This document shows, piece after piece, positions 47,953 through 63,980 of a DNA stretch of 64,000 bases. This stretch comes from a virus. The stretch lies in the IMG/VR virus record IMGVR_UViG_3300028558_000791, positions 372,001-436,000 of that record; one strand, 5' to 3'. Positions within the stretch are counted from its first letter, which is position 1. Every line of letters begins with the position of its first letter. The position numbers and the translations under genes were made by a program. The notes under the pieces are model-generated. The model ran no database searches. It worked only from the letters and a program-made list of their open reading frames with translations, and had not been told where the DNA came from.

Positions 47953-48021
47953 GGTGGGATAAGGTGAGAGGTCTTTGGCTCCCATTCACTGTCTGATCTT
48001 ACCCAAGATCGAGGTGATTCG

Positions 48022-48396
48022 ATGAACAAGAGCCAGGTTTCCGCCATCCTCGCAAGCAATCCTCGTGCCGTCACCAAGGCCGTTGTCCTACTCTTCGGCT
48101 TGCAGACCCACCAGGAGCGTGGGACACATCGCACCATCGACGACAACGGGGTCGGGTTCAGCGCGGCCGACGCTGACTTCGGCACCTACTGCGCGATGTG
48201 GGTGCTCAACATCCACAAGACCACTCCGCCTCACATCGTGGCCGACCGACTGGCCCACTACTTGCAGGGCGACAACCACCGCAGGTATCGCACCCTGTCG
48301 GGGAAGTTCCTCCAACGTGCGCTGGAGATGACACCGCGCTACTGGCGGCAGCTCTCACATGCTGCGAAGGTGAAGGCGGAGTCGGTTCCCTTCTGA
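48022..48396 (+). CDS. Hypothetical protein
   Basis: 124 residues. First gene of the GC-rich region; GAGGTG upstream of the ATG. Helical, basic C-terminus (RALEMTPRYWRQLSHAAKVK). Contains HIVADRLAHYLQGDNHRRYR. No family recognised. Preceded by dyad D2 and the repeat, followed by a strong terminator, so it forms its own transcription unit. Confidence 0.65.
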   Translation: MNKSQVSAILASNPRAVTKAVVLLFGLQTHQERGTHRTIDDNGVGFSAADADFGTYCAMWVLNIHKTTPPHIVADRLAHYLQGDNHRRYRTLSGKFLQRALEMTPRYWRQLSHAAKVKAESVPF

Positions 48397-48413
48397 CATC
48401 AGGCGACTCGTCG

Positions 48414-48448
48414 GGAGAGGTAGGACATCCTACCTCTCCTTTCTTTTG
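48414..48448 (+). terminator. Intrinsic terminator
   Basis: Perfect 11-bp stem GGAGAGGTAGG / CCTACCTCTCC with loop ACAT, then TTTCTTTTG. Confidence 0.9.
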
Positions 48449-48461
48449 TCTACAGTGTGGT

Positions 48462-48497
48462 TGGTATAGTCGTTGCAATATGCAAGGTGCCATGCCA
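48462..48497. repeat. Dyad element D3
   Basis: TGGTAT ... TTGCA-ATA-TGCAA ... ATGCCA, one base longer in the right half. Between a terminator and a repeat copy, in promoter position for 48599..49294. Confidence 0.65.
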
Positions 48498-48598
48498 GGT
48501 AAGTGCGAGCCAGGTAAAAGGGCGCGGCTCCCATTCACTGACTACCCAGGCCGGAAGGTGCGACGCCAACCCAAACCGAACGAAAGAGAGATACCGCC

Positions 48599-49294
48599 AT
48601 GTCCGACCTTTCCCTCTCGCCCGACAACATCATCGCTCTCCTCCTCTCGCAGCACACGTCGCACCAGGTCGCACACGAGGCGACCAAGGTGACCACCACC
48701 ATCATCCGCAACGCGGAGCCCAGCAAGAAGCAGGCCAAGCAGGCCGAGGCCCGCAAGGGCGAGGTGAAGGCTCCCATTCACAACGGCCCCAAGGTGTTCG
48801 GTGTGGCGATGCCCGACCGCAACACGCTGGATGCCAAAGGCTTCCTGATGGCTTGCCGCGATGCCGGCAAGCGCTCCTTCCAGACGGTCAACGAAGTGAC
48901 CGGCGAAGTTACCTCGGTCGTCAAGCGTGACGAGCGAGAGGTGCGCAACGATCTCATCAAGGCGATTCACGCCTACTGCGGTTACGACAACGGCCGTGAC
49001 TTCGGCTCGCAAGACACGGCGGCCAGGGCGAAGGCCAGTCGCGAGCTGAGCGGCAAGCCCATCGTCCTCGGTCCCTCGCGAGAGGAGCAGAAGGCGGCCG
49101 AGCGGTCAATGACCGGCTACGTTCACGGCATGCCGAACTACATGGCGTCCAAGGTGGCCGAGCTGACGGCACGTGAGACGGCCACGGCAGAGGAGCTGAT
49201 CGATGCCCGCAAGGAGGGCAACGAGGTGGAGGTGGCACGCTTGACCGCACTGCTCTCCAACGTGCGAGGCGAGCTGAGCCGCCTCGGTCTCTGA
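48599..49294 (+). CDS. Hypothetical protein
   Basis: 231 residues. Leader has AACGAACGAAAGAGAGA before the ATG, a sequence style shared with the gene at 49945. Helical throughout with Ala/Lys-rich segments; a repeat copy lies in frame encoding APIHNG. A C-terminal heptad-like stretch (LTARETATAEELIDARKEG) may be a coiled coil. I do not recognise it; size and abundance-type leader suggest a well-expressed early protein. Confidence 0.65.
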   Translation: MSDLSLSPDNIIALLLSQHTSHQVAHEATKVTTTIIRNAEPSKKQAKQAEARKGEVKAPIHNGPKVFGVAMPDRNTLDAKGFLMACRDAGKRSFQTVNEVTGEVTSVVKRDEREVRNDLIKAIHAYCGYDNGRDFGSQDTAARAKASRELSGKPIVLGPSREEQKAAERSMTGYVHGMPNYMASKVAELTARETATAEELIDARKEGNEVEVARLTALLSNVRGELSRLGL

Positions 49295-49318
49295 CACACA
49301 CACGGACTTACATCAGAG

Positions 49319-49355
49319 AGGGCTGCACCTGGCGGGGTGTGGCCCTTTCGTTTTT
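49319..49355 (+). terminator. Intrinsic terminator
   Basis: 11-bp stem AGGGCTGCACC / GGTGTGGCCCT (one GU) followed by TTTCGTTTTT. Confidence 0.88.
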
Positions 49356-49367
49356 CCGCAATCGGCT

Positions 49368-49402
49368 TGGCACGGACGTTGCAGAGTGCAAACGATGTGC
49401 CA
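49368..49402. repeat. 35-bp dyad element D4
   Basis: TGGCACGGACGTTGCA forward half is a perfect sigma-54 -24/-12 consensus. Arms TGGCAC/GTGCCA and TTGCA/TGCAA are perfect. Follows a terminator and precedes a repeat copy at 49440. Confidence 0.75.
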
Positions 49403-49648
49403 CGGAGATCCGCCTCTCCACACAAGAAAGAGAGTGCCGCTCCCATTCACTGACAGTCGAGAGCGAGAAGCGCAGCAACGAACGGACGGCAGCAAGCGCA
49501 AGCAAGCGCAGCGCATGTAGGATGCGTGACTAGGAGACCCCGAAGACGTGCCCGAATGTGAGGGCATGTAAGTCACCCTACCCGATGACCATAGCGCAAG
49601 TCGTCCAGCCGAGCTGCTCCCATTCACCGCTCGCTGAAAGGAGTGAGC
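49403..49648 (+). other. Non-coding leader with two repeat copies
   Basis: Contains repeat copies at 49440 and 49617. 64 nt after the first copy an ATG is followed at once by TAG (49515-49520), in a GCGCATGTAGG context. No longer ORF with a ribosome-binding site is seen. Likely a transcribed leader or small RNA. Confidence 0.5.
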
Positions 49649-49888
49649 ATGAGACGCCGCAACGAAGTCGATACCAACGCACTTCCGGATCTGATGCCAC
49701 GTGTGGCACGCATGTTGGAAGTGACGGGCGTGAGCATCGAAGACGTGGTGGCAGAATTGCGCACTACGGATCTGACGGAGTACAACATCTTCCTCACCAT
49801 CAAAGGTGCGGCCATGTGTTACCCTCACGTCAAGCAAGCGCTCGCTGATGCCTGCCCCGACACTCTGCCCTCTCCCATTCACGACTGA
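49649..49888 (+). CDS. Hypothetical protein
   Basis: 79 residues. The ATG 21 nt after a repeat copy is chosen over a GTG 6 nt earlier, with AAAGGAG just upstream. Helical (LMPRVARMLEVTGVSIEDVVA). The C-terminus SPIHD is encoded by the next repeat copy, so that copy overlaps the stop region. Confidence 0.65.
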   Translation: MRRRNEVDTNALPDLMPRVARMLEVTGVSIEDVVAELRTTDLTEYNIFLTIKGAAMCYPHVKQALADACPDTLPSPIHD

Positions 49889-49944
49889 CTCGAAACGATA
49901 AACGCCGCAAGGCAATCACCGCAACGAACGAAAGAGAGACCATC

Positions 49945-50133
49945 ATGGAAAACGTCAAGTTCACCCGCAACGGCGACAAGCTCACCATCGAAGTCGACCT
50001 CGCCTACCGTGGGCAGGTGTCCGCCACCGGCAAGACCCTTCGGGTCGCCAGCACCGAAGGCAACGTCCCCTGCGACGGTTCCCCCGAGATCAAGATCGGT
50101 CTCAACATCTTCGCCCCTGTTCCCAAGAAGTAA
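49945..50133 (+). CDS. Conserved small protein (TIEVDL...STEGN family)
   Basis: 62 residues, paralogue of 56324..56500. Pattern: MENVKF, LTIEVDL, TGKTLRVASTEGN, IKIGLNIF. Small proteins with this ASTxGN core are widespread in phages, plasmids and bacteria; function unknown to me. AAAGAGAGA precedes the start. Confidence 0.75.
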   Translation: MENVKFTRNGDKLTIEVDLAYRGQVSATGKTLRVASTEGNVPCDGSPEIKIGLNIFAPVPKK

Positions 50134-50149
50134 TTCGCCTACATCGGCG

Positions 50150-50197
50150 AGCCCCCTGCAATCCCGATACCAACAGGTACGCAAGGGACAGGGGGCT
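50150..50197 (+). other. 9-bp inverted repeat
   Basis: AGCCCCCTG (50150-50158) and CAGGGGGCT (50189-50197) with a 30-nt loop, directly before the tRNA-like RNA. May be a terminator-like or processing hairpin. Confidence 0.55.
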
Positions 50198-50203
50198 GAC
50201 TCT

Positions 50204-50288
50204 TCGCCAGTGCTACACGAAAAACGGGGCGGGACGCCTCGGCCTTCCAAGGTGGTGTAGCGTAAGGGTTCGATTCCCTGACTGGCGA
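50204..50288 (+). tRNA. tRNA-like RNA, possible Gly(TCC), non-canonical
   Basis: 8-bp acceptor-like stem TCGCCAGT / ACTGGCGA, T-arm AGGG-TTCGATT-CCCT, and an anticodon-loop-like CTTCCAA (Gly TCC) at 50244-50250. The anticodon stem is weak (one mismatch, two GU) and no normal D-arm is visible. Instead GCTACAC (50212) pairs perfectly with GTGTAGC (50255). It is either a strongly diverged tRNA or a tRNA-mimic RNA. CCA is not encoded (CC then CTGG). Confidence 0.45.
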
Positions 50289-50338
50289 CCCTGGCTCCCA
50301 TTCATGAGCCAGTAGATTCCAACATCGGAGGTTCCAAC

Positions 50339-50626
50339 ATGAAGTCACTCGACATGGCAGACAAGTATCCCCCGGCCGAAGACTTCGATGATGAGGACAC
50401 CACCGTCCGCATGCATGTGCCTACCTTCCTCCCCAAGGTCATCGTCGAGGATGAGGGTGAGGACGAGTACGACCTCTGGGGAGCTAGGGATACCATCCCC
50501 TGCCCACCTCCCTACCCTCATCCCCACATGAAGCGAGAAGTCAATTGGGGTGCAGTCGGCATCCTTGCCTTCACCATCGTCTTCTGGTGGACCGTCGGCT
50601 ACATGCTCTACTGCTGGATCTACTGA
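50339..50626 (+). CDS. Tail-anchored single-pass membrane protein
   Basis: 95 residues. Acidic N-terminal two thirds (AEDFDDEDTT, EDEGEDEYDLW), then Pro/His-rich PCPPPYPHPH, and a C-terminal membrane span (WGAVGILAFTIVFWWTVGYM). Good Shine-Dalgarno (TCGGAGG). The soluble part faces the cytoplasm by the positive-inside rule (KRE before the span). Function unknown. Confidence 0.7.
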   Translation: MKSLDMADKYPPAEDFDDEDTTVRMHVPTFLPKVIVEDEGEDEYDLWGARDTIPCPPPYPHPHMKREVNWGAVGILAFTIVFWWTVGYMLYCWIY

Positions 50627-50637
50627 CCAGCTCCCTG

Positions 50638-50670
50638 GCCCGACCTCCCATTCACTGGGAGGCGGGCTTT
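50638..50670 (+). terminator. Terminator-like hairpin containing a repeat copy
   Basis: GCCCG-(A)-CCTCCC pairs with GGGAGG-CGGGC around loop ATTCACT, then TTTAGG. The repeat copy at 50645 forms the 5' arm and loop. Confidence 0.6.
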
Positions 50671-50710
50671 AGGCATTATCAGGGGGCATGGGCAATGTCC
50701 CCATCTGTGT

Positions 50711-50860
50711 AGGAGGAATGCCGAGTAGTCGCTCAAGCCTGGAACATGGCGACACGAGCGTAAAAAGACTAGCAGGTGTCACACACCGTTTGGGCTAACT
50801 AGCTCCCGAGTGTGTGAAACTGTAATCTAGTGTAGCTACTCGTAACTCTCCTTGTGTTCT
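50711..50860 (+). ncRNA. Candidate structured RNA
   Basis: Outer stem CGAGTAG (50722) / CTACTCG (50836) encloses a strong inner hairpin TCACACAC (50779) / GTGTGTGA (50810). AGGAGGA-ATG at 50711-50720 opens a 26-codon frame (MPSSRSSLEHG...), but the spacing is too tight for a normal start. No other gene fits. Flanked by repeat copies at 50645 and 50861. Confidence 0.5.
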
Positions 50861-50892
50861 CTCCCATTCACAACTCACCCTGAGGTGCAGCC

Positions 50893-51141
50893 ATGGCGTA
50901 CGGTCTTTGGAATGTGAGCGGTAAGGTCATCATCCCCGGCACGCGCAAGAGCGCCAGCTTCGGTCCCGTTCGCATCGGCGATAAGGATCGTCAGACCGCC
51001 AGCAAGTGGCTGGCCTGCATGCTGAACGACAAGTTCAAGCGTGACCTGCGCGGAGGTGCGAAGTTCTCCGACCACTTCGCCCTCATGAACCTGAAGTGGG
51101 AAGATGTCGGCAAAGCTGCGCCGGCTCCCGCACAGACGTGA
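50893..51141 (+). CDS. Hypothetical protein
   Basis: 82 residues, ATG 21 nt after a repeat copy, TGAGGTG upstream. Begins MAYGLWNVSGKVIIPGTRKS, then KWLACMLNDKFKRDLRGG. Basic, compact. No family recognised. Confidence 0.68.
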   Translation: MAYGLWNVSGKVIIPGTRKSASFGPVRIGDKDRQTASKWLACMLNDKFKRDLRGGAKFSDHFALMNLKWEDVGKAAPAPAQT

Positions 51142-51188
51142 GGTGGATGGCTCCAGGGTAATACCTGGGGCCGTTCTTCAAAAGGCGG

Positions 51189-51223
51189 TGGCACGCCCGT
51201 TGCACTCTGCATCCCGCATGCCA
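51189..51223. repeat. 35-bp dyad element D5
   Basis: TGGCACGCCCGTTGCA is a perfect sigma-54-like half; right half TGCAT ... ATGCCA slightly diverged. 12 nt before the repeat copy at 51236. Confidence 0.72.
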
Positions 51224-51268
51224 TCGCCGCTTCGGCTCCCATTCACAACCCCCTGGAGAGCAACGAAC

Positions 51269-51415
51269 ATGGCAACGTCATTCGTCATCAAGCTCCCCAA
51301 GCAGAAAGCGCGTAACCCCCTGGGTCACATGCAAGAGCGGAAGCAGATCATGCGTGACCGTCGCAACCGGCGTCCCAAGGATGCCCGCAAGCAACGCGAA
51401 CCCTTCGAGTCCTGA
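51269..51415 (+). CDS. Small basic hypothetical protein
   Basis: 48 residues, 22 nt after a repeat copy with CTGGAGAG upstream. Very Arg/Lys-rich (RNRRPKDARKQR), probably nucleic-acid-binding or disordered. First gene of a three-gene unit. Confidence 0.6.
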   Translation: MATSFVIKLPKQKARNPLGHMQERKQIMRDRRNRRPKDARKQREPFES

Positions 51416-51450
51416 ACCCTCCCATTCACCGCCAACAAGTGGAGATGCAC

Positions 51451-51633
51451 ATGAGCAAGCAAACGTTCCGAGTGGTCGAGATGACGATTGTCCCTGGCCA
51501 GGAGCCGGCGACCAAACTCGTGCAGGGCAACCTCCCCAAGGGCAAGGCTCAGTCTCTCCAGGAGAAGCTGGAAGAGAAGCTCGGCGACTTCGACCCGCAG
51601 AAGGTGGTCTCCTACCTGGTCCAACCAGCATGA
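51451..51633 (+). CDS. Small hypothetical protein
   Basis: 60 residues. ATG 51451 is 21 nt after a repeat copy and 7 nt after GGAG; the GTG/ATG codons further up are not used in this reading. MSKQTFRVVEMTIVPGQ..., then a helix QSLQEKLEEKLGDF. Stop overlaps the next start (ATGA). Confidence 0.65.
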   Translation: MSKQTFRVVEMTIVPGQEPATKLVQGNLPKGKAQSLQEKLEEKLGDFDPQKVVSYLVQPA

Positions 51634-51881
51634 CTGTAGCACCGAACCTTGCCAGCATCCAAAGCGTAGGATGCTGGTACGAGGACCAGGAACGTACGCA
51701 ACCCATGCGGTACCAGGTGTGTGTACGCCAGTTCCGTAGAGGTGAGTGGGAAGTCATGATGGGTAGCATCGTAACCTACCTGTCACCCGAAGACTACTGC
51801 GACATGCATCAGCTACTACTGGTGGAGATGTATCGTGGCACGCGCCATGCACTCTCACACGAACGCACGGAGTTGATCTAA
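51630..51881 (+). CDS. Hypothetical protein
   Basis: 83 residues, start coupled to the previous stop (ATGA). Aromatic and Met-rich (SVGCWYEDQERTQPMRYQ, YLSPEDYCDMHQLLLVEMY). Not recognised. Confidence 0.62.
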   Translation: MTVAPNLASIQSVGCWYEDQERTQPMRYQVCVRQFRRGEWEVMMGSIVTYLSPEDYCDMHQLLLVEMYRGTRHALSHERTELI

Positions 51882-52036
51882 CGATCCTCCTACAAGTCAG
51901 CAGAGCTGGGGAGGATGTCATGTAACATCACACGGTTGATGACCGTTGTTTACTTGCGCCGACAACCAGAGAGATAGTAGCGACTCCCATTCATCGACAC
52001 CCTCAAACCAAAGGAATCGAGATGCTGGGTTTAGTC

Positions 52037-52057
52037 GGGCGGGAGTGAGTCCCGCCC
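52037..52057 (+). terminator. GC-rich hairpin overlapping a mini-ORF
   Basis: GGGCGGGA / TCCCGCCC with loop GTGAG; the TGA of the 8-codon ORF is in the loop region. No T-run, so pausing or attenuation rather than simple termination is possible. Confidence 0.55.
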
Positions 52058-52216
52058 ATCCTTGGCTACAGTGCTGCCCACGCGACTCTATGGGCTCTAG
52101 CTGCAAGGTAATTAGGTAACGTAGTCTGCAACGTTCTCACATAAGCGTTCCGGGTTTAGGAACCAGTGAGTCATATCCTTCTAGGATGTGGGGATACGTC
52201 AGCTACCTACCGTTGG

Positions 52217-52246
52217 ATTGGGGCCTGGCGAGGCCCCAATTTTAAT
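52217..52246 (+). terminator. Strong intrinsic terminator
   Basis: 10-bp stem ATTGGGGCCT / AGGCCCCAAT with loop GGCG, then TTTAAT. Also symmetrical enough to act on the minus strand. Confidence 0.85.
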
Positions 52247-52285
52247 ACGAACGCACCTACCCCGCACCACAGCACAGCACACACG

Positions 52286-52306
52286 GCGCCATCAGGGCGC
52301 TTTTTG
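52286..52306 (+). terminator. Intrinsic terminator
   Basis: GCGCC / GGCGC with loop ATCAG followed by TTTTTG. Second terminator within 70 bp. Confidence 0.7.
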
Positions 52307-52332
52307 TTAGCGTACATGTAGGGAAAGGTAGT

Positions 52333-52367
52333 TGGCATGGGCAGTGCATATTGCAAACGATATGCCA
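52333..52367. repeat. 35-bp dyad element D6
   Basis: TGGCAT / ATGCCA arms with core GTGCA-TAT-TGCAA. First of two dyads 50 bp apart. Confidence 0.7.
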
Positions 52368-52417
52368 GCAGGTTCCGCCCGCACAATCAAGCGACCGAAG
52401 GTGTGGGATAAGGTGGT

Positions 52418-52452
52418 TGGCATGGCCGTTGCATATTGCGAAGGCTATGCCG
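52418..52452. repeat. 35-bp dyad element D7
   Basis: TGGCATGGCCGTTGCA forward half; right half TGCGA ... ATGCCG decayed, so only the sigma-54-like half is intact. 29 nt before the repeat copy at 52482. Confidence 0.68.
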
Positions 52453-52556
52453 GGCTGGGCGCGAGGGTGCAAGGGAAGCGGCTCCCATTCACGGATAGCC
52501 GGCGACCGAAAGCGCCGCAACCAACCACGAACAAGCAAACGAGTCACACACTCACA

Positions 52557-52640
52557 ATGACTCACAAGGTACGGAACGGCAGCTCCCATTCACGGCGCAT
52601 CGAACGCCAAGGTCACGACGGAGGAAACGAACATGGGTAA
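52557..52640 (+). CDS. Possible 27-residue ORF (weak)
   Basis: M-T-H-K-V-R-N-G-S-S-H-S-R-R..., starting 64 nt after a repeat copy with no clear ribosome-binding site and containing the next repeat copy (reads SSHSR). It overlaps the start of 52633..52833. Could equally be part of a long leader. Confidence 0.25.
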   Translation: MTHKVRNGSSHSRRIERQGHDGGNEHG

Positions 52641-52833
52641 AGTCATCGTCATCATTCTGGCCACGTGTGCGGCACTGGGTATCCTGGTGCACTTCCTGGG
52701 CCATGCGACTATGGGGTCAACGGCCGTCACTGTCCCCAACACGGAACACACTCCCGCATTCGGACTTACATGGTTCGTGATCGGTGGTCTGTTCATCGGC
52801 GGTCTCTTCTACAAGCTCGTCAAGGGCAAGTAG
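52633..52833 (+). CDS. Small two-span membrane protein
   Basis: 66 residues, ACGGAGGAAACGAAC before the ATG. Membrane segments KVIVIILATCAALGILVHFL and FVIGGLFIGGLFYKLV separated by a ~20-residue loop. Function unknown. Confidence 0.7.
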   Translation: MGKVIVIILATCAALGILVHFLGHATMGSTAVTVPNTEHTPAFGLTWFVIGGLFIGGLFYKLVKGK

Positions 52834-52842
52834 GAGGGCCTG

Positions 52843-52950
52843 TAGGAATCTGGGTATACCCCCTACCCCTAAAAAAGTTTTACCTGTTTTCCCAAAAACG
52901 GTAATCGGGGTTCGGTATACGCATACCATTCCTGTAGGTTTTCATGGGTG
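52843..52950 (+). repeat. Intergenic element, copy 1 (CCCCTAAAAAAGTTTT)
   Basis: Contains CCCCTAAAAAAGTTTT and, about 20 nt on, CGGTAATCGGG, then a T-rich AGGTTTT. A second copy lies at 55512-55615. Conserved blocks with variable spacers suggest a structured RNA or regulatory element. Confidence 0.55.
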
Positions 52951-53040
52951 GGGTGTCAAGCCCCCAGCAAGTCTAGCTAGGAGCCTACCTTGGTTGCCAA
53001 CTAGCTAGCTCCCATTCACTGCACGTCGAGAGGTGAAAGC

Positions 53041-53295
53041 ATGGCACACTCAATCGGTCTCGGCGATATCGTCTCTCTCCAGTGGAGTGATGGGTACGAC
53101 AACGGTACTGTCTGTCAGGTCCACAAGGACGGAACGGTAGACGTCTTTCGTCCCTACGTCCACAATGCTGACTTCTCATGTGCAGGTAGTCACGAGGGTT
53201 CACTGTCGGTCATCTGCTACATTGGAGTCGAGACTAGCAAGGGTATCAATCCCGAGCGTCTCAAGGTACTCCGCAAGGGCGGCACGATTCGATAG
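53041..53295 (+). CDS. Hypothetical SH3/KOW-like small protein
   Basis: 84 residues, ATG exactly 21 nt after a repeat copy, GAGAGGTG upstream. GLGDIVSLQWSDGYDNGTVCQ, HKDGTVDVFRPYV and a final PERLKVL give a five-strand SH3-like barrel pattern (inference). Function unknown. Confidence 0.68.
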   Translation: MAHSIGLGDIVSLQWSDGYDNGTVCQVHKDGTVDVFRPYVHNADFSCAGSHEGSLSVICYIGVETSKGINPERLKVLRKGGTIR

Positions 53296-53336
53296 CCTCC
53301 CATTCACGGCGGCAGGAAAGCGACAATAGCAACGGC

Positions 53337-53528
53337 GGGCTAGACTCTGGGTACATGGCATACTTGGTCGCTACCCAAGTAGGTCCCAACTGAGACAGTA
53401 TCTTGTAGCGAGGGAATGTCTTGGGGGCCACAAGCTCCCCACATAGGGGTTCGACTCCCCACTACTATCCAAGTGGTAGGAGACCAGGTTGGCTGGGTGT
53501 GTGTTGGCATGAACCTAGAGTCTAGCCC
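53337..53528 (+). ncRNA. Structured RNA with T-arm and permuted acceptor-like hairpin
   Basis: A 16-bp closing stem (53337-53352 with 53513-53528; one mismatch or GU) encloses about 160 nt. Inside: hairpin TACTTGG / CCAAGTA (53371-53390), and a T-arm-like GGGG-TTCGACT-CCCC (53446-53460). Immediately after it, CTACTAT-CCAA-GTGGTAG (53462-53479) makes a 7-bp hairpin. T-arm followed by a 3' acceptor strand, CCA and then the 5' acceptor strand is the order of a circularly permuted tRNA. A normal D-arm and anticodon arm are not convincing. Preceded by a repeat copy at 53297. Confidence 0.45.
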
Positions 53529-53569
53529 ATCGTCGGGCTCCCATTCACGGCCCATCAGCGGAGGATGAC

Positions 53570-53800
53570 ATGAGCAACAACAACGCAACGGCGCAGCAAG
53601 TCACGGCAGGCATCAGAGCAGCGGCGGCCATTGGTGAGGTAATTCGAGACTTGGGCTCTGTCCCCTCGGGGCACCTGTATGCCCGACTCATGGGACGTAT
53701 GAGCCTGGACACCTACAACAGTCTCATCGGACTACTCAAGCAAGCCAATCTGGTGGAGGAGTCTAACCACCTTCTCACCTGGGTCGGCCCCAAAGAGTAA
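53570..53800 (+). CDS. Hypothetical protein, possibly winged-helix-like
   Basis: 76 residues, ATG 21 nt after a repeat copy, GCGGAGGA upstream. Helical: VTAGIRAAAAIGEVIRDLG, SGHLYARLMGRMSLDTYNSL, LKQANLVEESNHLLTWVG. The last parts resemble a winged-helix DNA-binding fold (inference). Confidence 0.65.
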   Translation: MSNNNATAQQVTAGIRAAAAIGEVIRDLGSVPSGHLYARLMGRMSLDTYNSLIGLLKQANLVEESNHLLTWVGPKE

Positions 53801-53809
53801 CCATCTCAC

Positions 53810-54067: not shown

Positions 54068-54099
54068 CTCCCATTCACGGCAGACCGGAGAGCAAGGTC

Positions 54100-54460: not shown

Positions 54461-54508
54461 GGGCTCCCATTCACGGTCGAACGAAACCCAAGGTCGGAGG
54501 CAACGAAC

Positions 54509-55138: not shown

Positions 55139-55143
55139 GACAA

Positions 55144-55186
55144 GGGAGGGGCAGGTAGGTTGTCGTGGGCCTGACCTGCCCCTCCC
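55144..55186 (+). terminator. 13-bp stem whose 3' arm is a repeat copy
   Basis: GGGAGGGGCAGGT and ACCTGCCCCTCCC pair perfectly across a 17-nt loop; the repeat copy at 55182 supplies CTCCC of the 3' arm. Followed by ATTCACGG rather than T's, so termination is uncertain. Confidence 0.6.
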
Positions 55187-55207
55187 ATTCACGGAAGGAC
55201 GAGTGAC

Positions 55208-55511: not shown

Positions 55512-55615
55512 CTGGAGTAGGTGTAGACCCCCCACCCCTAAAAAAGTTTTCGGTCAATTCTCAGAATCGGTAATCGGGCCTTGGAATCCACATAGTTTTT
55601 TCCAGGGTTTTTTGG
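55512..55615 (+). repeat. Intergenic element, copy 2 (CCCCTAAAAAAGTTTT)
   Basis: ACCCCTAAAAAAGTTTT, then CGGTAATCGGG 22 nt later and a T-run CAGGGTTTTTTGG, directly before the repeat copy at 55616. Matches copy 1 at 52843-52950. Confidence 0.55.
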
Positions 55616-56157: not shown

Positions 56158-56323
56158 GGGGCCTGCGAGTCTGGGTAGAACCAGTAAGGATCCCTTCACG
56201 TAAACCTGTAATAGTAACCTAAACCCTTGGCCCGTACCTATCGAAAGATGGGGCGGGCATAAGGCATTGAAACAACTTGGGAGATGCAATGCTCCCATTC
56301 ACCAACGCAACGGAGCAATGCAC

Positions 56324-57907: not shown

Positions 57908-57981
57908 GGTTCATTCGCCGACAGTGGGCCAAGGTGGTTCACTGGATCAACGACGGAACGCACGGTCCCTGCGACTGGTAG
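57904..57981 (+). CDS. Very small basic protein
   Basis: 25 residues from a GTG overlapping the previous stop (GTGA): VRFIRRQWAKVVHWINDG... The TAG is followed 2 nt later by the degenerate repeat copy at 57984. Plausible by coupling only. Confidence 0.4.
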   Translation: MRFIRRQWAKVVHWINDGTHGPCDW

Positions 57982-58005
57982 GGTTACCATTCACGGAGAG
58001 TCAGC

Positions 58006-58629
58006 ATGCGTAATTCAATTGCGGTGATGTTGTGCTGCTTGGTTTGCGCATGCGGCTCTTTTGCTTCAGAGGATGAGGCGAGTGATACTGTTGCTGCTAC
58101 CACTGATTATGGTAGTAGCAGCAACAGTGATAGTGGGAATGACAACATTGTTGTCATCATTCACAAGGGAGTTTTCACTTTCTACAACGACAGTGATTCT
58201 CAGGTGAGTGACTCTGGTGTCGAGACCAGTGTGGATGTGTCGGATGCTGGAGTGGATTCCAGTGACGATGATGCATCGGCTGGTGATGATGCCGGCCTGA
58301 GCGAACCGACTTGCGAGACAGGAACCTACGTTGTCGGGCATTGCCTATACAACATGGCTACTGTTTGTCAGGAATACTTTTCTGACCATGAAGCTGACTG
58401 CAAGAGTCTGACGGTTCATCCTATGGGAGGGTCTTGGTGGCCTGGACCATGTGGTGGTGAGCCTGGCACTGACCTTCACCGTTCATCTGGTGGCTGTATG
58501 AACGAGTGTGGGAGCATTACTTGGAGTTACCGCCTGGGTGGTGGTCCTCCTGACGAGGTATCGATTCAGGGCGAGAAGGATCTTTGCGAAGCCTTCCCTG
58601 GTTATACCTACATCATGACTGGATTCTGA
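58006..58629 (+). CDS. Acidic lipoprotein
   Basis: 207 residues. Signal peptide MRNSIAVMLCCLVCACGS with lipobox. A Ser/Asp/Val-rich low-complexity region (SDSGVETSVDVSDAGVDSSDDD) makes a stalk, then a Cys-containing C-terminal domain (~residue 105 on: CETGTYVVGHC, GPCGGEPGTD). Codon use is more T-ending than neighbours, suggesting separate acquisition. Only an 11-nt gap to the degenerate repeat copy. Confidence 0.7.
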   Translation: MRNSIAVMLCCLVCACGSFASEDEASDTVAATTDYGSSSNSDSGNDNIVVIIHKGVFTFYNDSDSQVSDSGVETSVDVSDAGVDSSDDDASAGDDAGLSEPTCETGTYVVGHCLYNMATVCQEYFSDHEADCKSLTVHPMGGSWWPGPCGGEPGTDLHRSSGGCMNECGSITWSYRLGGGPPDEVSIQGEKDLCEAFPGYTYIMTGF

Positions 58630-58828
58630 CACGAGGTTTCCTAGACAGAGTGACGGTTGCCTCCCTGAATAAGACAGAGGGTTACTATGCAATGGTCAAG
58701 CGCCAGTAACCGGGACGCAGCTTGATAGGACTGACCAACTAACAAGTCAGTGGGTTTCGACTCCCATTCACGGCAGAGAACGTCGTGAGCTATATGAGGC
58801 AGGCGTCACCCTGTTTAGGAGATACATC
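58630..58828 (+). other. Non-coding stretch with T-arm-like hairpin
   Basis: ACTGAC / GTCAGT hairpin (58731-58751), then TGGG-TTTCGACT-CCCA (58751-58766), a T-arm-like stem whose 3' arm is the repeat copy at 58761. No convincing gene before ATG 58829. Confidence 0.4.
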
Positions 58829-59188
58829 ATGTGCAATCCCGATGTGGATACTAAGGTCGAGTTGGCGAGACTGCCACAACTCCTACGGGAGAGGGGATGG
58901 TCAAGCTCAGAAGTCAAGAAGGACTATCCTGGTTCTTCTGGTCCTGGCGACTGGATCCAAGGTTCCTCGGGGCCAACCGAAACCCACCAGGGGATCACTT
59001 TCTTCTCTGGCACACCATTCCAGGTGATTGCCCGTGAGGATGACCTAAAGGTACGAGTAGGTTGGCCGGCACAAGGAACGACTACCTATACTTGCTTCTC
59101 AGCAGAGCAGGTGGAATGGTGGTTGGGTAAGATACTGGAGATGGCCGACAAGGACATTGCTGATAGACGACGGGCCTTACTAGTCTGA
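58829..59188 (+). CDS. Hypothetical protein
   Basis: 119 residues, TAGGAGATAC upstream of the ATG. LARLPQLLRERGW, SSGPGDWIQGSSGPTETHQG, FQVIAREDDLKVRVGWPAQG, then a helix VEWWLGKILEMADKDIADRRR. Not recognised. Confidence 0.62.
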   Translation: MCNPDVDTKVELARLPQLLRERGWSSSEVKKDYPGSSGPGDWIQGSSGPTETHQGITFFSGTPFQVIAREDDLKVRVGWPAQGTTTYTCFSAEQVEWWLGKILEMADKDIADRRRALLV

Positions 59189-59191
59189 GAT

Positions 59192-59271
59192 GTAGCTAAG
59201 AGAGCGTAGGTTCGCTCAAGGGTGTTGTAACCCTGGCCTGATCAACCGTGGTTCGAGTCCACCTAGCTACC
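59192..59271 (+). tRNA. tRNA-like gene, anticodon uncertain
   Basis: Acceptor stem GTAGCTA / TAGCTAC, D-arm GAGCG-TAGGTT-CGCTC, anticodon arm AGGGT-GTTGTA-ACCCT and T-arm GTGG-TTCGAGT-CCAC in correct order, variable region GGCCTGATCAAC. Anticodon loop is 6 nt (8 if the T-A pair opens), so the anticodon could be TGT (Thr), GTA (Tyr) or GTT (Asn). CCA not encoded. Probably a diverged phage tRNA. Confidence 0.6.
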
Positions 59272-59404
59272 CGAGCTGACTGTCACACCGAAGGATACGA
59301 CCCTCTCCAAAGAACCCCCAGGGAGGCTACGGAGGATCTTTTCGTCCCTCGATGGACTAGGTGGCACATCCCCGAAGGTGGTTGGGGAAGTGTGCAACGA
59401 CAGT

Positions 59405-59439
59405 CGGCTCTCTAATTGCACTCTGCAAAACAGGAGCCA
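59405..59439. repeat. 35-bp dyad element D8, diverged arms
   Basis: Core TTGCA-CTC-TGCAA conserved, outer arms changed to GGCTC / GAGCC but still complementary to each other. 6 nt before the repeat copy at 59446. Confidence 0.6.
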
Positions 59440-59481
59440 TCGGTGCTCCCATTCACGGCACGACGAAAGCCGAGGGAGTCG

Positions 59482-59670
59482 ATGTATCCTATCGTTTGCA
59501 AACATCACAAGGAACATTGCGAGGACTGCGCTATGTGTCGTAACTTCGACCAGGCTGTCCAACAGAGCTTAGTGAGTTTCAAGCCTCATCCTAGCCAACA
59601 CTCCACGGTCATGATGCCGAGAATCAAGGCTTGGATTGACTCAGTGTTTCCGGTTCCCATCAAGTCATAG
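59482..59670 (+). CDS. Small Cys/His zinc-binding protein
   Basis: 62 residues, GAGGGAG upstream, 25 nt after a repeat copy. MYPIVCKHHKEHCEDCAMC gives a Cys/His cluster, then a short helical tail (PRIKAWIDSVFPVP). Function unknown. Confidence 0.6.
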   Translation: MYPIVCKHHKEHCEDCAMCRNFDQAVQQSLVSFKPHPSQHSTVMMPRIKAWIDSVFPVPIKS

Positions 59671-59676
59671 GGCCAC

Positions 59677-60045
59677 ATGAAACTCCTACTCAACGCCATT
59701 CAATGTCTGTCATGTGATGAAGTGATTGTCTCTCGGGACCGTCATGACTTCAAGACATGCAAGTGTGGTAAGGTTAGCGTGGATGGTGGGTTGGACTACA
59801 AACGGCGTGCCTTCCAGGGAGTACATAGTTACTTGGAGCGTTGTGCCTGGACCTATTCCAAGAACACCAATCCCAGCGATGTGGTAGACAAGTTCATTGT
59901 CTGGAGTCCTGGCGGCAAGACCAATCCTGGAGTCATCTTCGACTATCAGGGCGATGCCGAAGCATCGGCCAAGGAACTATCGGCCAGGGTTCCAGAGAGT
60001 GATTGGTACGTGGCACAACTGTATCACGTGCCCACTAAGCCATGA
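59677..60045 (+). CDS. DUF7695-like zinc-ribbon protein
   Basis: 122 residues. NAIQCLSCDEVIVSRDRHDF, CKCGKVSVDGGLDYKRR: the C-x2-C ... HDF-x2-C-x-C-G-x-x-x-x-DGG-x-DY-x-RR family common in phages and mobile elements. A C-terminal ~60-residue extension (EASAKELSARVPESDWYVAQ) is extra. ATGA overlap with the next gene. Confidence 0.78.
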   Translation: MKLLLNAIQCLSCDEVIVSRDRHDFKTCKCGKVSVDGGLDYKRRAFQGVHSYLERCAWTYSKNTNPSDVVDKFIVWSPGGKTNPGVIFDYQGDAEASAKELSARVPESDWYVAQLYHVPTKP

Positions 60046-60749
60046 TTCGCTGGCTACTTGCCAAGCTCTGGGAGAAGGTCAATCTACCTGCTGTCTATCG
60101 AGAGATGAAAGCTCTTGGTAAGAAGCATGGTCGAAGATTCTTCTGGGCGGCTATCATCTGGGAAGCCATCGAAGACATCGTGCTCCCATTCATCGCCTGG
60201 TTGTGCGGAGTGCCAGAGTTGATTCCGGTCTTCCTGGTCCTGCACTTCGAGCCCATCGTTTACCCTGCCTTCTTCTGGGGATTCAAAACCTGGGACCGGC
60301 TACATGGTAGGGAACCTTGGGAGCCTAATCGAGAAGCTCAGTCTACACACTGGCGTTCTATCCTGAAAGGACTCACACTTCATCTGACTGTCTCTGGCTG
60401 GTTGTTACAGGTTGTTGCCTGGAAGCCACTAGCTATCCTGATGGTACTGATGAGTCTCTTTGGATTCATTCACGAGCGTATCTGGCATGATACTAACTAT
60501 GGTATCATTGGAGATGATGTAGTTCAGTATCGGCGAAGCCTCGCTAAAGCTGGCACCTACTTGCTCATCTCCAGCATGACACTGTATCCTCTCCTGAAGG
60601 TTACTGGCTCGGTGCATATTCTGCATTCGTTGCTACTGGCTCAAGGTATAACGGGTTTCTTGTACCTGTTGTTGGAGAGTGTGTGGGCCAAGTCTAAGTG
60701 GGGTGTGACTCCCATTCACCCGCCTGATGACCCCGAGGAACATCGATAA
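60042..60749 (+). CDS. Multi-spanning membrane protein
   Basis: 235 residues, start coupled by ATGA. About five or six hydrophobic spans (RFFWAAIIWEAIEDIVLPFI, LIPVFLVLHFEPIVYPAFFW, PLAILMVLMSLFGFI, YLLISSMTLYPLL, LLLAQGITGFLYLLL). Two repeat copies lie in frame (reading VLPFIAW and VTPIHPP). No transporter motif recognised. Confidence 0.72.
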   Translation: MIRWLLAKLWEKVNLPAVYREMKALGKKHGRRFFWAAIIWEAIEDIVLPFIAWLCGVPELIPVFLVLHFEPIVYPAFFWGFKTWDRLHGREPWEPNREAQSTHWRSILKGLTLHLTVSGWLLQVVAWKPLAILMVLMSLFGFIHERIWHDTNYGIIGDDVVQYRRSLAKAGTYLLISSMTLYPLLKVTGSVHILHSLLLAQGITGFLYLLLESVWAKSKWGVTPIHPPDDPEEHR

Positions 60750-60754
60750 AACAT

Positions 60755-60946
60755 ATGCTGACTCCCGAGGAAGCTGTTGCCTATCACTTCATCAAGGCTT
60801 GGTTGGCGTGGGAAGAGGCCCATGACATTCAAGAATGGATGGAGCGAGGTTTCAAGTTCAACGACGCTGATAGCCATCTCTATCAGGCCATTGGGCTTGC
60901 TGGATTGAAGTGGCCTTGGGAGTATCGCCTTCCCCGCAAGAGGTAG
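60755..60946 (+). CDS. Small hypothetical protein
   Basis: 63 residues. LTPEEAVAYHFIKAWLAWEEAHD..., helical, Trp-rich, basic tail LPRKR. Sits between the membrane protein and the PrimPol gene with 4-5 nt gaps. Confidence 0.6.
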   Translation: MLTPEEAVAYHFIKAWLAWEEAHDIQEWMERGFKFNDADSHLYQAIGLAGLKWPWEYRLPRKR

Positions 60947-60950
60947 CAAC

Positions 60951-61556
60951 GTGGCCTACACTGGACAACAACGGTTCCTACTCAGAGACGCTGACAAGTA
61001 TCTCGAATTGGGATATCGAGTTGGCCTAGCTAAGGACAAGAAGTTCCTCAAGGAATACAAGAACACAACGACCATGACCTTCTGGGGTCCAATGCAGACT
61101 ACTCCAGAAGTGAACGTTGACTTCAATGGCATCTCAATCATCCCCGATGAGATTGTCTGCGTGGACATTGACATACCAGACTTCAGTGTTGTGTACGAGG
61201 AACTACCTCCTACCTTCAAGGAGAAGACGCCACGTGGTTGGCATCTCTGGTATCGTCTACCACAAGTGATTGGCGCACCCTGGTCACCGCAGATCAAGTG
61301 GCGCCCGCATGTTGACTTACTGACAACAGAGAAGATTGTCACACTCAGTCTTGGTTCTCCCTTCAAACGGCGGTCTCGCTATGACACTGGGGATGACGAT
61401 GATGGGCAAGACGAACCGGCCATCGTCTCACACTGGGGTGAGCATGTGCTAAGCAGTGGAACTACAGGCTATCAACGAATGTGGCCTGATGAGACTCCTG
61501 CAAAAGCTGATCTTCCGATGGCGCCTCAATGGCTCCAAGACGCGCTGCTCAAGTAA
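60951..61556 (+). CDS. Stand-alone primase-polymerase (PrimPol/AEP) domain protein
   Basis: 201 residues, GTG start. Catalytic D-x-D as VCVDIDIP (~residue 72), a H-containing motif TPRGWHLWYRL (the S/TxGxH motif of archaeo-eukaryotic primases) and HVDLLTTEKIVTLSLGSP for the third acidic motif and the nucleotide-binding strand. Matches the bifunctional primase/polymerase N-terminal fold without a helicase domain. Probably makes primers for phage or element replication. Confidence 0.75.
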   Translation: MAYTGQQRFLLRDADKYLELGYRVGLAKDKKFLKEYKNTTTMTFWGPMQTTPEVNVDFNGISIIPDEIVCVDIDIPDFSVVYEELPPTFKEKTPRGWHLWYRLPQVIGAPWSPQIKWRPHVDLLTTEKIVTLSLGSPFKRRSRYDTGDDDDGQDEPAIVSHWGEHVLSSGTTGYQRMWPDETPAKADLPMAPQWLQDALLK

Positions 61557-61568
61557 GGGCTCCCATTC

Positions 61569-61880
61569 ATGGAACCGGCTAAGCTGACTCATGTGGCGGT
61601 TCGAGTAAGAGGAGTCCTCTACTCACTACCGTCTCCCAACAGACACCATCATATCCTCTGGATTCTTGCCAAGAGAAAAGGCGATGAGGGTGCGCCAGAG
61701 GTGGCTGACGAGCACCTGCTAACGGAGACCTTGAATGCTGGCGATAACAGTCAAGGTTTCTTGGATGCCGATGGTCAGTACCTAAACAGGGCTGACGGTC
61801 TAATCAGGGCGCAAGCTACTGGACAGATCAAGAACGGGAAGACTATCGGAAGTGTTCTCACTTCGGAGGACTTGTGGTAA
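61569..61880 (+). CDS. Conserved phage small protein (SEDLW family)
   Basis: 103 residues. The repeat copy at 61560 overlaps the start codon (ATTC-ATG). Pattern: VLYSLPSPNRHHHILW, GFLDADGQYLNRADGLIRA, A-x-GQI, LTSEDLW at the C-terminus, a phage family ending in SEDLW/Y. The stop overlaps the next ATG (TAATG). Confidence 0.75.
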   Translation: MEPAKLTHVAVRVRGVLYSLPSPNRHHHILWILAKRKGDEGAPEVADEHLLTETLNAGDNSQGFLDADGQYLNRADGLIRAQATGQIKNGKTIGSVLTSEDLW

Positions 61881-62059
61881 TGGCCAACGAACAATCGGTT
61901 GCGGTCAACATCGAGAAGCTGGGTGAGTTTCATACTCGCCAAGACAAGTGCCCGAGCTGCAAGAGCAAGGACATCAAACAGACTGACCCACCGGAGAACG
62001 GTACGCACTCCAAGGAGTGCAACATCTGTGACTATCACTGGATGGAAACGCTTTCGTAG
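61880..62059 (+). CDS. Small zinc-ribbon protein
   Basis: 59 residues, ATG overlapping the previous stop (TAATG). CPSCKSKDIKQTDPPEN then CNICDYHW: a complete C-x2-C ... C-x2-C ribbon. Confidence 0.7.
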   Translation: MANEQSVAVNIEKLGEFHTRQDKCPSCKSKDIKQTDPPENGTHSKECNICDYHWMETLS

Positions 62060-62094
62060 CGCCTCCCATTCACGGCACATCGGGGGCCGAAGCC

Positions 62095-62493
62095 ATGAGC
62101 AAGCAGAACGAAATCGTACTCAAGCTGTATGACGAAGAGGGAGACGAGGTGGAGCACACCTTCCCTTCCAAGAACGAAGTGTGTCCGACCTGTGAAGGAT
62201 TCGGTACTCACCTCAACCCCAGCATCGGCAACCATGCTTACACCATGGAAGAATTCAACGAGTCCTTCGATGAAGAAGGTAAGGAAGAATACTTCCGTCG
62301 GGGCGGCATCTACGATGTCACCTGCGAAGAGTGCAAGGGCAACAAGGTCATCCAGGTAGTGGATGAGGACCATCTTAGCGATGAGCAGAAGAAGCTTTAC
62401 GCAGAGTGGGAAGAGCAAGAGGAAGAACGAATCAGTGATGAGAGGGCTGATGCTCGCACTCGCTACTACGAATCTGGAGGCTACGATTACTGA
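62095..62493 (+). CDS. Conserved phage/plasmid protein with DnaJ-like cysteine pairs
   Basis: 132 residues, ATG exactly 21 nt after a repeat copy. CPTCEGFGTHLNPSI ... YDVTCEECKGNKVIQV resembles a DnaJ-type zinc centre; the 'CPTCxGxGxHxNPsid' phrase is common in phages and plasmids. Acidic C-terminal helix (EEQEEERISDERADAR). TGATG overlap with the next gene. Confidence 0.75.
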   Translation: MSKQNEIVLKLYDEEGDEVEHTFPSKNEVCPTCEGFGTHLNPSIGNHAYTMEEFNESFDEEGKEEYFRRGGIYDVTCEECKGNKVIQVVDEDHLSDEQKKLYAEWEEQEEERISDERADARTRYYESGGYDY

Positions 62494-62846
62494 TGCCATC
62501 TCCCATTCACAATCCGTCGTTCGTCCAACGTAATCCAGCCACCAAGGAAATTGATGTGCAAGCCAGCCTGCGTATCATTGCCAAGGACTTGATTACTCAG
62601 AGGGACGAAGAGAAGCGGGTTCGCTCCAGTCGTCGGTATCGCAATGCGGTCCGGGCTGTCCTTCTCGCCAATAACAACATCCCCATGACCAGGGCAGAGT
62701 TGGTCCGTGGTGCCATCACCAAGCTCAGAGTCAAGGATTCCGAACGGACCAAGACGCTGGATGACTTGTGGAACCATGTCACCGCCAACCGCGAATTCGG
62801 CTACCTGTATATGGCAGGCCGAGGAATGAATCTCAAGCAACCATGA
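62493..62846 (+). CDS. Hypothetical protein
   Basis: 117 residues. A repeat copy encodes SPIH at residues 3-6. Basic helical middle (RSSRRYRNAVRAVLLANNNIP, MTRAELVRGAITKLRVKD) looks like a winged-helix-type arrangement. ATGA overlap with the next gene. Confidence 0.65.
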   Translation: MPSPIHNPSFVQRNPATKEIDVQASLRIIAKDLITQRDEEKRVRSSRRYRNAVRAVLLANNNIPMTRAELVRGAITKLRVKDSERTKTLDDLWNHVTANREFGYLYMAGRGMNLKQP

Positions 62847-63172
62847 AGCTCCCATTCATCGCCTCACTCATCGCTCTCGTCAGTGTCGTGGGTTGTGCAG
62901 CAGCCCCGCCCCCTGCACCGTTGCCTCCAGTGGTGGTGACCATCAGGGACATCCCGACTCCTCCCGTCAGGGGTGAAGTTGTGGAGGACTCGGTTGTGGT
63001 GGTGGAGTCTGTCCAAGAGGAGACTCACGAGGCCATGAATCCCGAGGACTACCAGAGGTTGTCTGGTCTTATTCACCGTGAGACGGCCAGCATCAAGTGT
63101 GTCTGCACTGCGGGTGACCCGCACTGCTTCTGCCGACTGCCCAACGGCCCCAAGATTCTTCCCAAGGAGTGA
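62843..63172 (+). CDS. Proline-rich lipoprotein
   Basis: 109 residues. MKLPFIASLIALVSVVGC is a signal peptide with a lipobox; a repeat copy encodes LPFI in it. Mature part begins AAAPPPAPLPP, then VEDSVVVVESVQEETHEA and a C-terminal Cys cluster (CVCTAGDPHCFC). Spanin-like features (Pro-rich outer-membrane lipoprotein) are possible but no inner-membrane partner was identified. Confidence 0.7.
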   Translation: MKLPFIASLIALVSVVGCAAAPPPAPLPPVVVTIRDIPTPPVRGEVVEDSVVVVESVQEETHEAMNPEDYQRLSGLIHRETASIKCVCTAGDPHCFCRLPNGPKILPKE

Positions 63173-63175
63173 GTC

Positions 63176-63487
63176 ATGAGTGAGTATCTCAATAAGAACG
63201 GACTAGTGCAGGGTCTCATTCCTGCCAATACCGCTTGTCCGTTCTTGGAGAACTGCAAGCTCAAGGTTCACACCTGTCCTGGTGTGGATGGCAAGATGAA
63301 GCCAAACCACTTCTCTTGTGCCGCTGCCAGACTACACTCCGCAATCGCTCAAGCGGCTGATGCTCCCGCCTTTCAAGCTAAGGCTAGGAGTATCGTGGAG
63401 AAAGAGCCAACTCTCTTCGAGATTAGGCGCGGCAAAGCTTACATTACTTTTGGTAGTATGCCTGCCGTCAAGGATCCCAACAAGTGA
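63176..63487 (+). CDS. Hypothetical Cys-containing protein
   Basis: 103 residues. CPFLENCKLKVHTCPGVDG and FSCAAARLHS suggest a metal site; then a helical ending EKEPTLFEIRRGKAYITFG. The stop overlaps a GTG start for the next frame (GTGA). Confidence 0.65.
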   Translation: MSEYLNKNGLVQGLIPANTACPFLENCKLKVHTCPGVDGKMKPNHFSCAAARLHSAIAQAADAPAFQAKARSIVEKEPTLFEIRRGKAYITFGSMPAVKDPNK

Positions 63488-63615
63488 AACCGTCTCCCAT
63501 TCACTGCAAGGTCTGTCAACACAACATGGGACGGTCCAGGGTCAAGGGTGGCCGAGTGCGGTGTAATAACTGCAAGACGGTTTATATCGTTACCATAGTC
63601 CCCAAGAAAGACTGA
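63484..63615 (+). CDS. Very small zinc-ribbon protein (GTG start)
   Basis: 43 residues: VKPSPIHCKVCQHNMGRSR..., then CNNCKTVYIVTIV. Two CxxC pairs form a ribbon. A repeat copy encodes PSPIHC at the start. Supported by the GTGA coupling and the ribbon. Confidence 0.6.
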   Translation: MKPSPIHCKVCQHNMGRSRVKGGRVRCNNCKTVYIVTIVPKKD

Positions 63616-63616
63616 C

Positions 63617-63943
63617 ATGGCTACCTACAAAGTCGAGCTGGATGCTGATGGACGTACTCACTATGTGATGGACTTGAAGTCTGGTCACGGCAAGGAGAAG
63701 TATGCTCACACCATGCTCATCTACTACTACCCGGCAGGTGACATCGACACTCGTATGAAAGACGCTCATATGATGTATGGCGCCCTTTACGATCTCTTCC
63801 AGACTCACGATGACTTGAAGGAAGGCGACATCTTCGAGACTGAGTTTGGTCACTACCGATGTGAAGGGGTTCACGTTCTACCCAACTTCGAGTTGGGGCC
63901 GCAGCCCGAGTACATGACTCGTCAACACAACTTGGAGTGGTAA
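63617..63943 (+). CDS. Hypothetical protein
   Basis: 108 residues, one base after the previous stop. VELDADGRTHYVMDLKSGHG, HTMLIYYYPAGDIDTRMKDA, FETEFGHYRCEGVHVLPNF. Soluble alpha/beta; no family recognised. The next repeat copy follows 6 nt after the stop. Confidence 0.65.
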   Translation: MATYKVELDADGRTHYVMDLKSGHGKEKYAHTMLIYYYPAGDIDTRMKDAHMMYGALYDLFQTHDDLKEGDIFETEFGHYRCEGVHVLPNFELGPQPEYMTRQHNLEW

Positions 63944-63980
63944 ACCCGCTCCCATTCACGAACCGCAAACGAGGAAGACC

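Follow-up and report, generated by a model that had tools for sequence, protein, structure and literature searches.

The stretch of DNA analysed here (the window) comprises 64,000 nucleotides (nt), positions 372,001–436,000 of the 480,838-nt IMG/VR virus record IMGVR_UViG_3300028558_000791, in which a terminase large subunit, a head maturation protease and a DNA helicase were recognised, identifying the virus as a tailed phage. It carries 57 predicted tRNA genes and a tmRNA. The G+C content is about 42% up to 47.9 kb of the window, jumps there to about 60%, and from there declines gradually, reaching about 48% by the right end. Genes to the left of this jump run leftward, while nearly all clear genes beyond it run rightward, and the genes of the GC-rich arm to its right are mostly small and of unknown function. 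It is this arm, probably the early arm of the phage, that holds the element with which we are concerned, a short motif, CTCCCATTCA, found ahead of many of its genes.

Within the window, CTCCCATTCA is present in 37 exact copies (47,979–63,949), all on the plus strand and none earlier in the window, whereas shuffled sequences lead one to expect 0.13 per whole window; our recount thus agrees with the original prediction, which had reported 37 such copies in 16 kb and none in the first 47.8 kb. Nor is the motif equally common away from gene starts or on both strands, as the whole record contains 60 forward and 0 reverse copies, 52 of the 60 being located in the GC-rich arm (record position 419,979 to the end). 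A second carrier was identified in the huge phage IMGVR_UViG_3300010938_000950 (G031, 209,766 nt; hereafter the relative), which has 53 forward and 2 reverse copies, and whose arm is in large parts collinear with that of the window phage, at roughly 65–80% DNA identity, or about 72% taken over the arm, and with the same G+C jump. Isolated copies were also detected in 3300010938_000951 (G004, 266,899 nt), which is probably the other part of the relative's genome.

The conserved unit, both at 51 sites in the arm of the window phage and again over 105 sites when the relative was added, is G-CTCCCATTCA-(C/T)-N-R, with nothing conserved upstream of position −1 of the motif. Nearly every copy has a C or T right behind CTCCCATTCA, and of the 105 bases at position +12, two bases past the 11-mer so defined, 103 are purines. 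Conservation of the core is nearly all-or-none: CTCCCATTCAC is exact in 92 copies across both arms, the one-mismatch copies in both arms are mostly a final C-to-T variant, and the reverse strands of the two arms contain one one-mismatch copy each. Three CTCCCATTCAT copies (56968, 60183 and 62849) lie in frame within genes, where they encode Leu-Pro-Phe-Ile (L-P-F-I), two of them in lipoprotein-like signal peptides; these look like coding coincidences. The copies at 48771, 61560 and 62500 are also placed unlike the others.

To score the distance between motif and gene, we took the first ATG after each site that had a Shine–Dalgarno (SD) sequence and an open reading frame (ORF) of at least 40 codons, pooling both phages. 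The gap is exactly 21 nt at 25 of 62 SD-supported starts, with the runner-up gap represented three times, and in 1000 rounds of random re-anchoring no single gap was ever reached more than 4 times. The SD sequence is located between motif and ATG, with the motif end at least 21 nt upstream of the start. The distribution is one-sided: it peaks at 21 nt, trails off up to about 76 nt and is almost empty below the peak. Four gaps fall below 21 nt, but three of these sites also have an ATG at 21, which leaves a single site whose gap is clearly shorter; 21 nt therefore looks like a lower limit at which sites accumulate, beyond a mere mode. By hand count, the exact 21-nt gap is retained in about 7 of 10 orthologous pairs, compared with 1 of about 14 for other gaps. 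All ten ATGs quoted originally, nine with a gap of 21 nt and one of 22, were verified, and two more at 21 nt (55214 and 63526) can be added; the preference for 21 nt stands, with the correction that the pattern is one-sided. In its copy number, strand and spacing, the motif is confirmed as real. Its representative sites are as follows:

47979–63959, plus strand: dense zone, 37 motif copies in 16 kb, with a thinner spread onward to the right end of the record
47979–47989, plus strand: motif, first of the GC-rich arm, 32 nt before ATG 48022; orthologous gap 33
48528–48538, plus strand: motif, 60 nt before ATG 48599, downstream of a terminator and a palindrome
49440–49450, plus strand: motif, downstream of terminator 49316–49349 and palindrome 49369; no ORF of at least 35 amino acids close behind
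49617–49627, plus strand: motif, 21 nt before ATG 49649; orthologue gap 21
50861–50871, plus strand: motif, 21 nt before ATG 50893
51419–51429, plus strand: motif, 21 nt before ATG 51451; orthologue gap 21
53009–53019, plus strand: motif, 21 nt before ATG 53041; orthologue gap 21
53538–53548, plus strand: motif, 21 nt before ATG 53570; orthologue gap 33
54068–54078, plus strand: motif, 21 nt before ATG 54100, abutting the stop of the preceding gene
55182–55192, plus strand: motif, with in-frame ATGs at 15 and 21 nt; orthologue arranged alike
56292–56302, plus strand: motif, 21 nt before ATG 56324
62063–62073, plus strand: motif, 21 nt before ATG 62095; orthologue gap 21
63949–63959, plus strand: motif, 21 nt before ATG 63981; orthologue gap 21

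A conserved gene map of the arm, built from the two-phage comparison, shows that 22 of the 34 conserved genes between 47.9 and 64 kb have the motif (hereafter, tagged genes), so that the original statement that it marks nearly every gene start is too strong and should read about two thirds. Among 108 reciprocal-best arm orthologues, the relative has the motif at 20 of 29 tagged versus 3 of 79 untagged genes (odds ratio 56, p = 4e-12). The orthologous arm proteins are 35–78% identical between the two phages, and their spacers differ, yet the 11-mer is still exact. Rather than having the genes without the motif, the sole relative with the motif-bearing gene forms retains it.

No further motif array turned up in the 38 related records screened, 36 of them beyond those already named, nor in two pattern scans of IMG/VR and one of GTDB genomes; these yielded at most isolated matches. 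Two relatives (G026 and G033) have no array, though a homologue of one arm protein (about 52% identity) is present; the closest relatives by terminase (G001 and G003) have none either, a negative that weighs little as these are fragments that may lack the arm. In G033 (37969–60005; L105) there is a short tandem repeat of the AGATAAAG type, with 11 copies of AGATAAAGA in 22 kb. Rfam gave no match, and we did not find the motif described in the literature searched, which did not extend to subscription literature.

The arm contains a second repeated element, a family of palindromes of about 33 bp (GGCAY-N5-TTGCA-N3-TGCAA-N5-RTGCC) at 47,812, 47,919, 48,463, 49,369, 51,190, 52,334 and 52,419, with members in equivalent places in the relative (L112 ~15050–16700; L113 ~365–1575). 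The left half of each closely matches the consensus sigma-54 −24/−12 pattern, and the match at 49,369 is perfect:

47812–47842, plus strand: palindromic sigma-54-like element GGCATAGCCTTTGCAATATGCAATCTATGCC
47919–47951, plus strand: weaker second palindromic element
48463–48496, plus strand: palindromic sigma-54-like element, between terminator 48413–48440 and motif 48528
49369–49401, plus strand: palindromic element GGCACGGACGTTGCAGAGTGCAAACGATGTGCC, perfect sigma-54 −24/−12 match, with the symmetric change GGCAC/GTGCC
51190–51222, plus strand: palindromic element, 46 nt before motif 51236
52334–52366, plus strand: palindromic element, after terminator 52285–52301
52419–52451, plus strand: palindromic element, 63 nt before motif 52482

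Each of the strong terminators at 48,413, 49,316 and 52,285 has a palindrome behind it, and next comes a motif, 46–71 nt past the nearest palindrome. As this order recurs at three places in each phage, the promoter-like elements and the motif are separate. We consider the palindromes putative promoters at the starts of transcription units, judging from their sequence and position; no sigma-54 activator was found in the record, and their symmetry would also fit a repressor site or an RNA hairpin. Past 52.4 kb in the window, we found no more palindromes and no strong plus-strand terminator, and the motif goes on gene after gene; the simplest reading of this region is a long operon with one tag per leader.

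Some individual copies have distinctive surroundings. Behind the motif at 51984 (51984–52040 in the window) and its counterpart in the relative (L113 1020; ~1020–1100) comes a mini-ORF of 8–9 codons with its stop codon located in a GC-rich hairpin (GGGCGGGAGTGAGTCCCGCCC), an arrangement that resembles a leader-peptide attenuator, and the copy at L113 1954 (~1954–2030) is also followed by a GC-rich hairpin of this sort. Motif 74101 (window numbering) precedes a conserved stretch that looks non-coding, with a GGGGC...GCCCC hairpin and CCATTGAATGACGG, common to the relative (L020 10101–10200; L114 ~8733). One copy in the AT-rich part, surrounded by non-coding sequence and with a tRNA-Leu gene about 145 nt downstream, is kept in the relative (L001 9040; L117 3303). 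An 81-nt direct repeat beginning GGAATCTGGGTATACCCCCTACCCCTAAAAAAGTTTT (window 52845–52925 and 55514–55594, 74% alike) lies just upstream of motifs 53009 and 55616; its core, CCCCTAAAA, is not present in the relative's arm. Among the predicted tRNAs, two with anticodon CTA (called Pyl) and one with TTA are possible stop-codon suppressors (L009 12924–13255; L003 10073–10149).

We found no sigma-70 −35/−10 signal upstream of the motif: TAnnnT is present within 20 nt of 9% of the sites versus 11% further upstream, and the information content beyond −4 is at most 0.11 bits (104 sites). The same measures applied to Myxococcus phage Mx1, as a positive control, gave TAnnnT at 81% (background 6%) and TTGA at 69%, a signal clear enough to establish that the method detects per-gene promoters where they are present. 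A sigma-70 promoter for each tagged gene was rejected on this missing signal. Furthermore, the motif often starts 0–5 nt past the previous stop codon, which leaves no intergenic room for a promoter. The original preference for a role in the mRNA leader over that of a simple promoter is favoured by the lack of an upstream −35/−10, by the 21-nt gap that is both preferred and kept in orthologues, and by the separate promoter-like elements at unit starts; that RNA is the recognised form, that the effect is on translation and that a factor activates it, we infer.

The SD sequences themselves are stronger at motif genes than at untagged genes of the same arm (median −6.6 versus −4.9 kcal/mol, p = 0.001), so that the motif adds to the SD sequence rather than replacing it, and its use as an SD substitute is ruled out. 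A fixed RNA hairpin in the leader was likewise rejected, as no covariation was seen at fixed positions; folding downstream of the motif is marginally better than in shuffles (mean z −0.28 ± 0.13), and a few leaders form hairpins.

The tag seems to be a new kind of signal for the start of protein synthesis, not a promoter in the usual sense. To our mind there is about an even chance, on the sequence comparisons presented here, that CTCCCATTCAC, flanked as G-CTCCCATTCAC-N-R, belongs to the mRNA leader as an element marking where translation starts and at which a factor docks just outside the initiating ribosome. During initiation, the 30S subunit is expected to reach upstream to about −20; a near-invariant, single-stranded 11-mer that ends just beyond this point, together with a near-floor at 21 nt, fits a leader-bound protein adjoining the ribosome. 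Under such a mechanism, transcription would begin at the separate palindromic sigma-54-like promoter elements placed after terminators, and within the resulting long transcript each tagged gene would have its own motif copy, often right after the preceding stop, followed by a strong SD sequence and the ATG. A trans-acting factor, most likely a phage protein, although a host factor was also considered, would bind the RNA tag just upstream of the 30S footprint and promote or time initiation at the tagged genes. With a gap below 21 nt the factor would clash with the ribosome, and genome compaction would push many leaders to the 21-nt minimum. More tentatively, and as a possibility to which we would give rather less than even weight, the motif may constitute a phage-specific translation-initiation code, in which a phage factor recognises an 11-nt mRNA tag no closer than 21 nt to the start codon and steers host ribosomes towards the dozens of early genes that have the tag in long polycistronic transcripts.

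Several results weigh against a leader element of this kind. Many sites have gaps of up to 76 nt, and some precede no clear gene. In folds, the motif is neither unusually unpaired nor paired with the SD sequence. A search for a trans-acting phage RNA revealed no exact complement of at least 10 nt beyond the motif's own antisense, and one isolated match when G-U pairs were allowed; the longest match to 16S rRNA is 7 nt, typical of shuffled motifs (the E. coli 16S was used, which may differ from that of the host). No docking factor was found, the window's own record having no S1 or NusG/RfaH domain; the NusG/RfaH family profile PF02357 was negative in the record while 10 controls were positive, giving no sign of an ops/RfaH-type system encoded by the phage, and a host RfaH could still act. 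The ribosomal protein bS21 is encoded, but as it is also found in relatives without the motif, it alone cannot explain the tag.

The main rivals to a docking site in the leader are cleavage of the mRNA and a promoter of an unrecognised type, both of which would also set a minimum leader length. If a phage or host endoribonuclease cut at the motif, each gene would obtain its own 5′ end and 21 nt would be the shortest translatable leader; the near-absolute sequence requirement with hardly any degenerate copies, the position directly after stop codons within long operons and the near-floor at 21 nt are all consistent with this. However, an 11-nt unstructured site is, as a matter of general knowledge, long for known sequence-specific endoribonucleases, the motif is also present at the first genes of units, and no candidate nuclease was found, so that we regard processing as rather unlikely. 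We consider it unlikely, too, that the motif is itself a promoter or transcript-start signal, one per gene, for an unrecognised phage RNA polymerase or sigma-type factor. Its asymmetry, near-invariance, single orientation and purine at +12 in 103 of 105 copies would suit such a signal, phages with their own polymerase are known to have short promoters before single genes, and a gp55-like/sigma-70-like factor of about 214 amino acids is encoded. Yet this factor is common to relatives without the motif; the RNA polymerase beta-subunit profile PF00562 was negative in the record while 14 of 14 controls were positive; a scan of the record for RNA polymerase catalytic motifs was empty; and the T7-like profile PF00940 was negative in the record as well, a weak result as no control genome gave a signal. 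Moreover, promoter-like elements are located elsewhere, and a promoter alone leaves the exact 21-nt peak unexplained.

A role as a DNA site for a phage repressor or silencer would place the motif beside the stoperators of cluster A mycobacteriophages, DNA sites for the immunity repressor, which are likewise short, asymmetric, present in dozens of copies in one orientation to transcription and, as here, in an arm of small non-structural genes (PMC6550527). We hold this to be quite improbable: no fixed distance to start codons has been reported for stoperators, whereas the 21-nt gap is preferred and conserved, and there is no evidence that the phage is temperate, although no search for a repressor was made. 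Finally, the leaders might be passive relics, copied along with genes in local duplications and yet to diverge, as the paralogy of some arm genes (D14) and a weak mutual resemblance of the 21-nt leaders might suggest. This reading, to which we attach hardly any probability, has been refuted for the most part by exact conservation from one phage to the other, the 11-mer having stayed exact while the spacers differ and orthologous proteins have diverged to 35–78% identity, and by the very strong co-conservation of its presence.

Among known systems, Myxococcus phage Mx1, which has a homologue of one arm protein (36% identical), likewise has an arm of small genes, many of which place a C-rich leader, ACCTCGAA, immediately ahead of the SD sequence; unlike the motif described here, most Mx1 leaders are preceded by TTGAC and TAnnnT. 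We note that in Mx1 (L155, OR576727.2 76493–117218) the many small genes with TTGAC...TAnnnT followed by ACCTCGAA(CAC) before the SD sequence form an array of promoters, one per gene, that comes with a start-linked leader sequence of its own. Early promoters of phages that encode RNA polymerases themselves, such as phiKZ and AR9, are also short, gene-oriented and placed before many single genes; these phages carry multisubunit polymerases, whereas no polymerase domain was found in the record of the window phage. There is a likeness to leader-selective translation by phage bS21, a protein that adjoins the SD/anti-SD helix where upstream mRNA exits the ribosome (PMC9723584), in that the window phage encodes bS21, though the occurrence of bS21 in motif-less relatives sets the two apart.

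The nearest analogue, as originally proposed, is the start-associated sequence (SAS) of cluster K mycobacteriophages, an asymmetric 13-bp sequence associated with gene starts of the non-structural half of the genome, where it keeps essentially one orientation, and for which a role in translation has been proposed (PMC3203893, PMC11373665). Like the SAS, the motif described here is short, asymmetric, linked to starts, present in many copies in essentially one orientation (60 forward, 0 reverse) and confined mostly to a non-structural part. It is not an SAS, however: the window contains no match to GGGATAGGAGCCC with up to 2 mismatches, and whereas the SAS lies 3–9 nt from the start and includes the SD core, the motif ends at least 21 nt upstream with the SD sequence in between. 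Moreover, there are 11–19 SAS copies per genome, compared with 52–53 here, and the cluster K mycobacteriophages and the window phage are unrelated. The comparison is nevertheless closer than was originally claimed, because in cluster K phages, too, a motif linked to gene starts goes together with an inverted repeat further upstream, there a putative promoter. A subset of SAS copies is preceded by inverted repeats termed ESAS, later read as holding SigA-like promoters (PMC3203893, PMC11373665, PMC12699233), and in both phages analysed here palindromes that may be promoters lie 46–71 nt upstream of the motif at unit starts, the difference being that ESAS has SigA-like hexamers and the palindrome looks sigma-54-like. 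The motif appears to work like the SAS and to have arisen independently; that phage groups without kinship share a strikingly similar two-part layout, a start tag with a putative inverted-repeat promoter element, points to convergent evolution.

Start-associated sequences of phages have been known since 2011 without a mechanism, and the present motif provides an independent case in an unrelated huge phage. New with respect to the SAS are the larger number of copies, the nearly invariant 11-mer, the location outside the ribosome-binding site and the sharp minimum distance to the start, a geometry that makes a leader-bound factor touching the initiating ribosome directly testable. If this is true, phages would have an addressing system above the SD sequence that could be used for selective translation.

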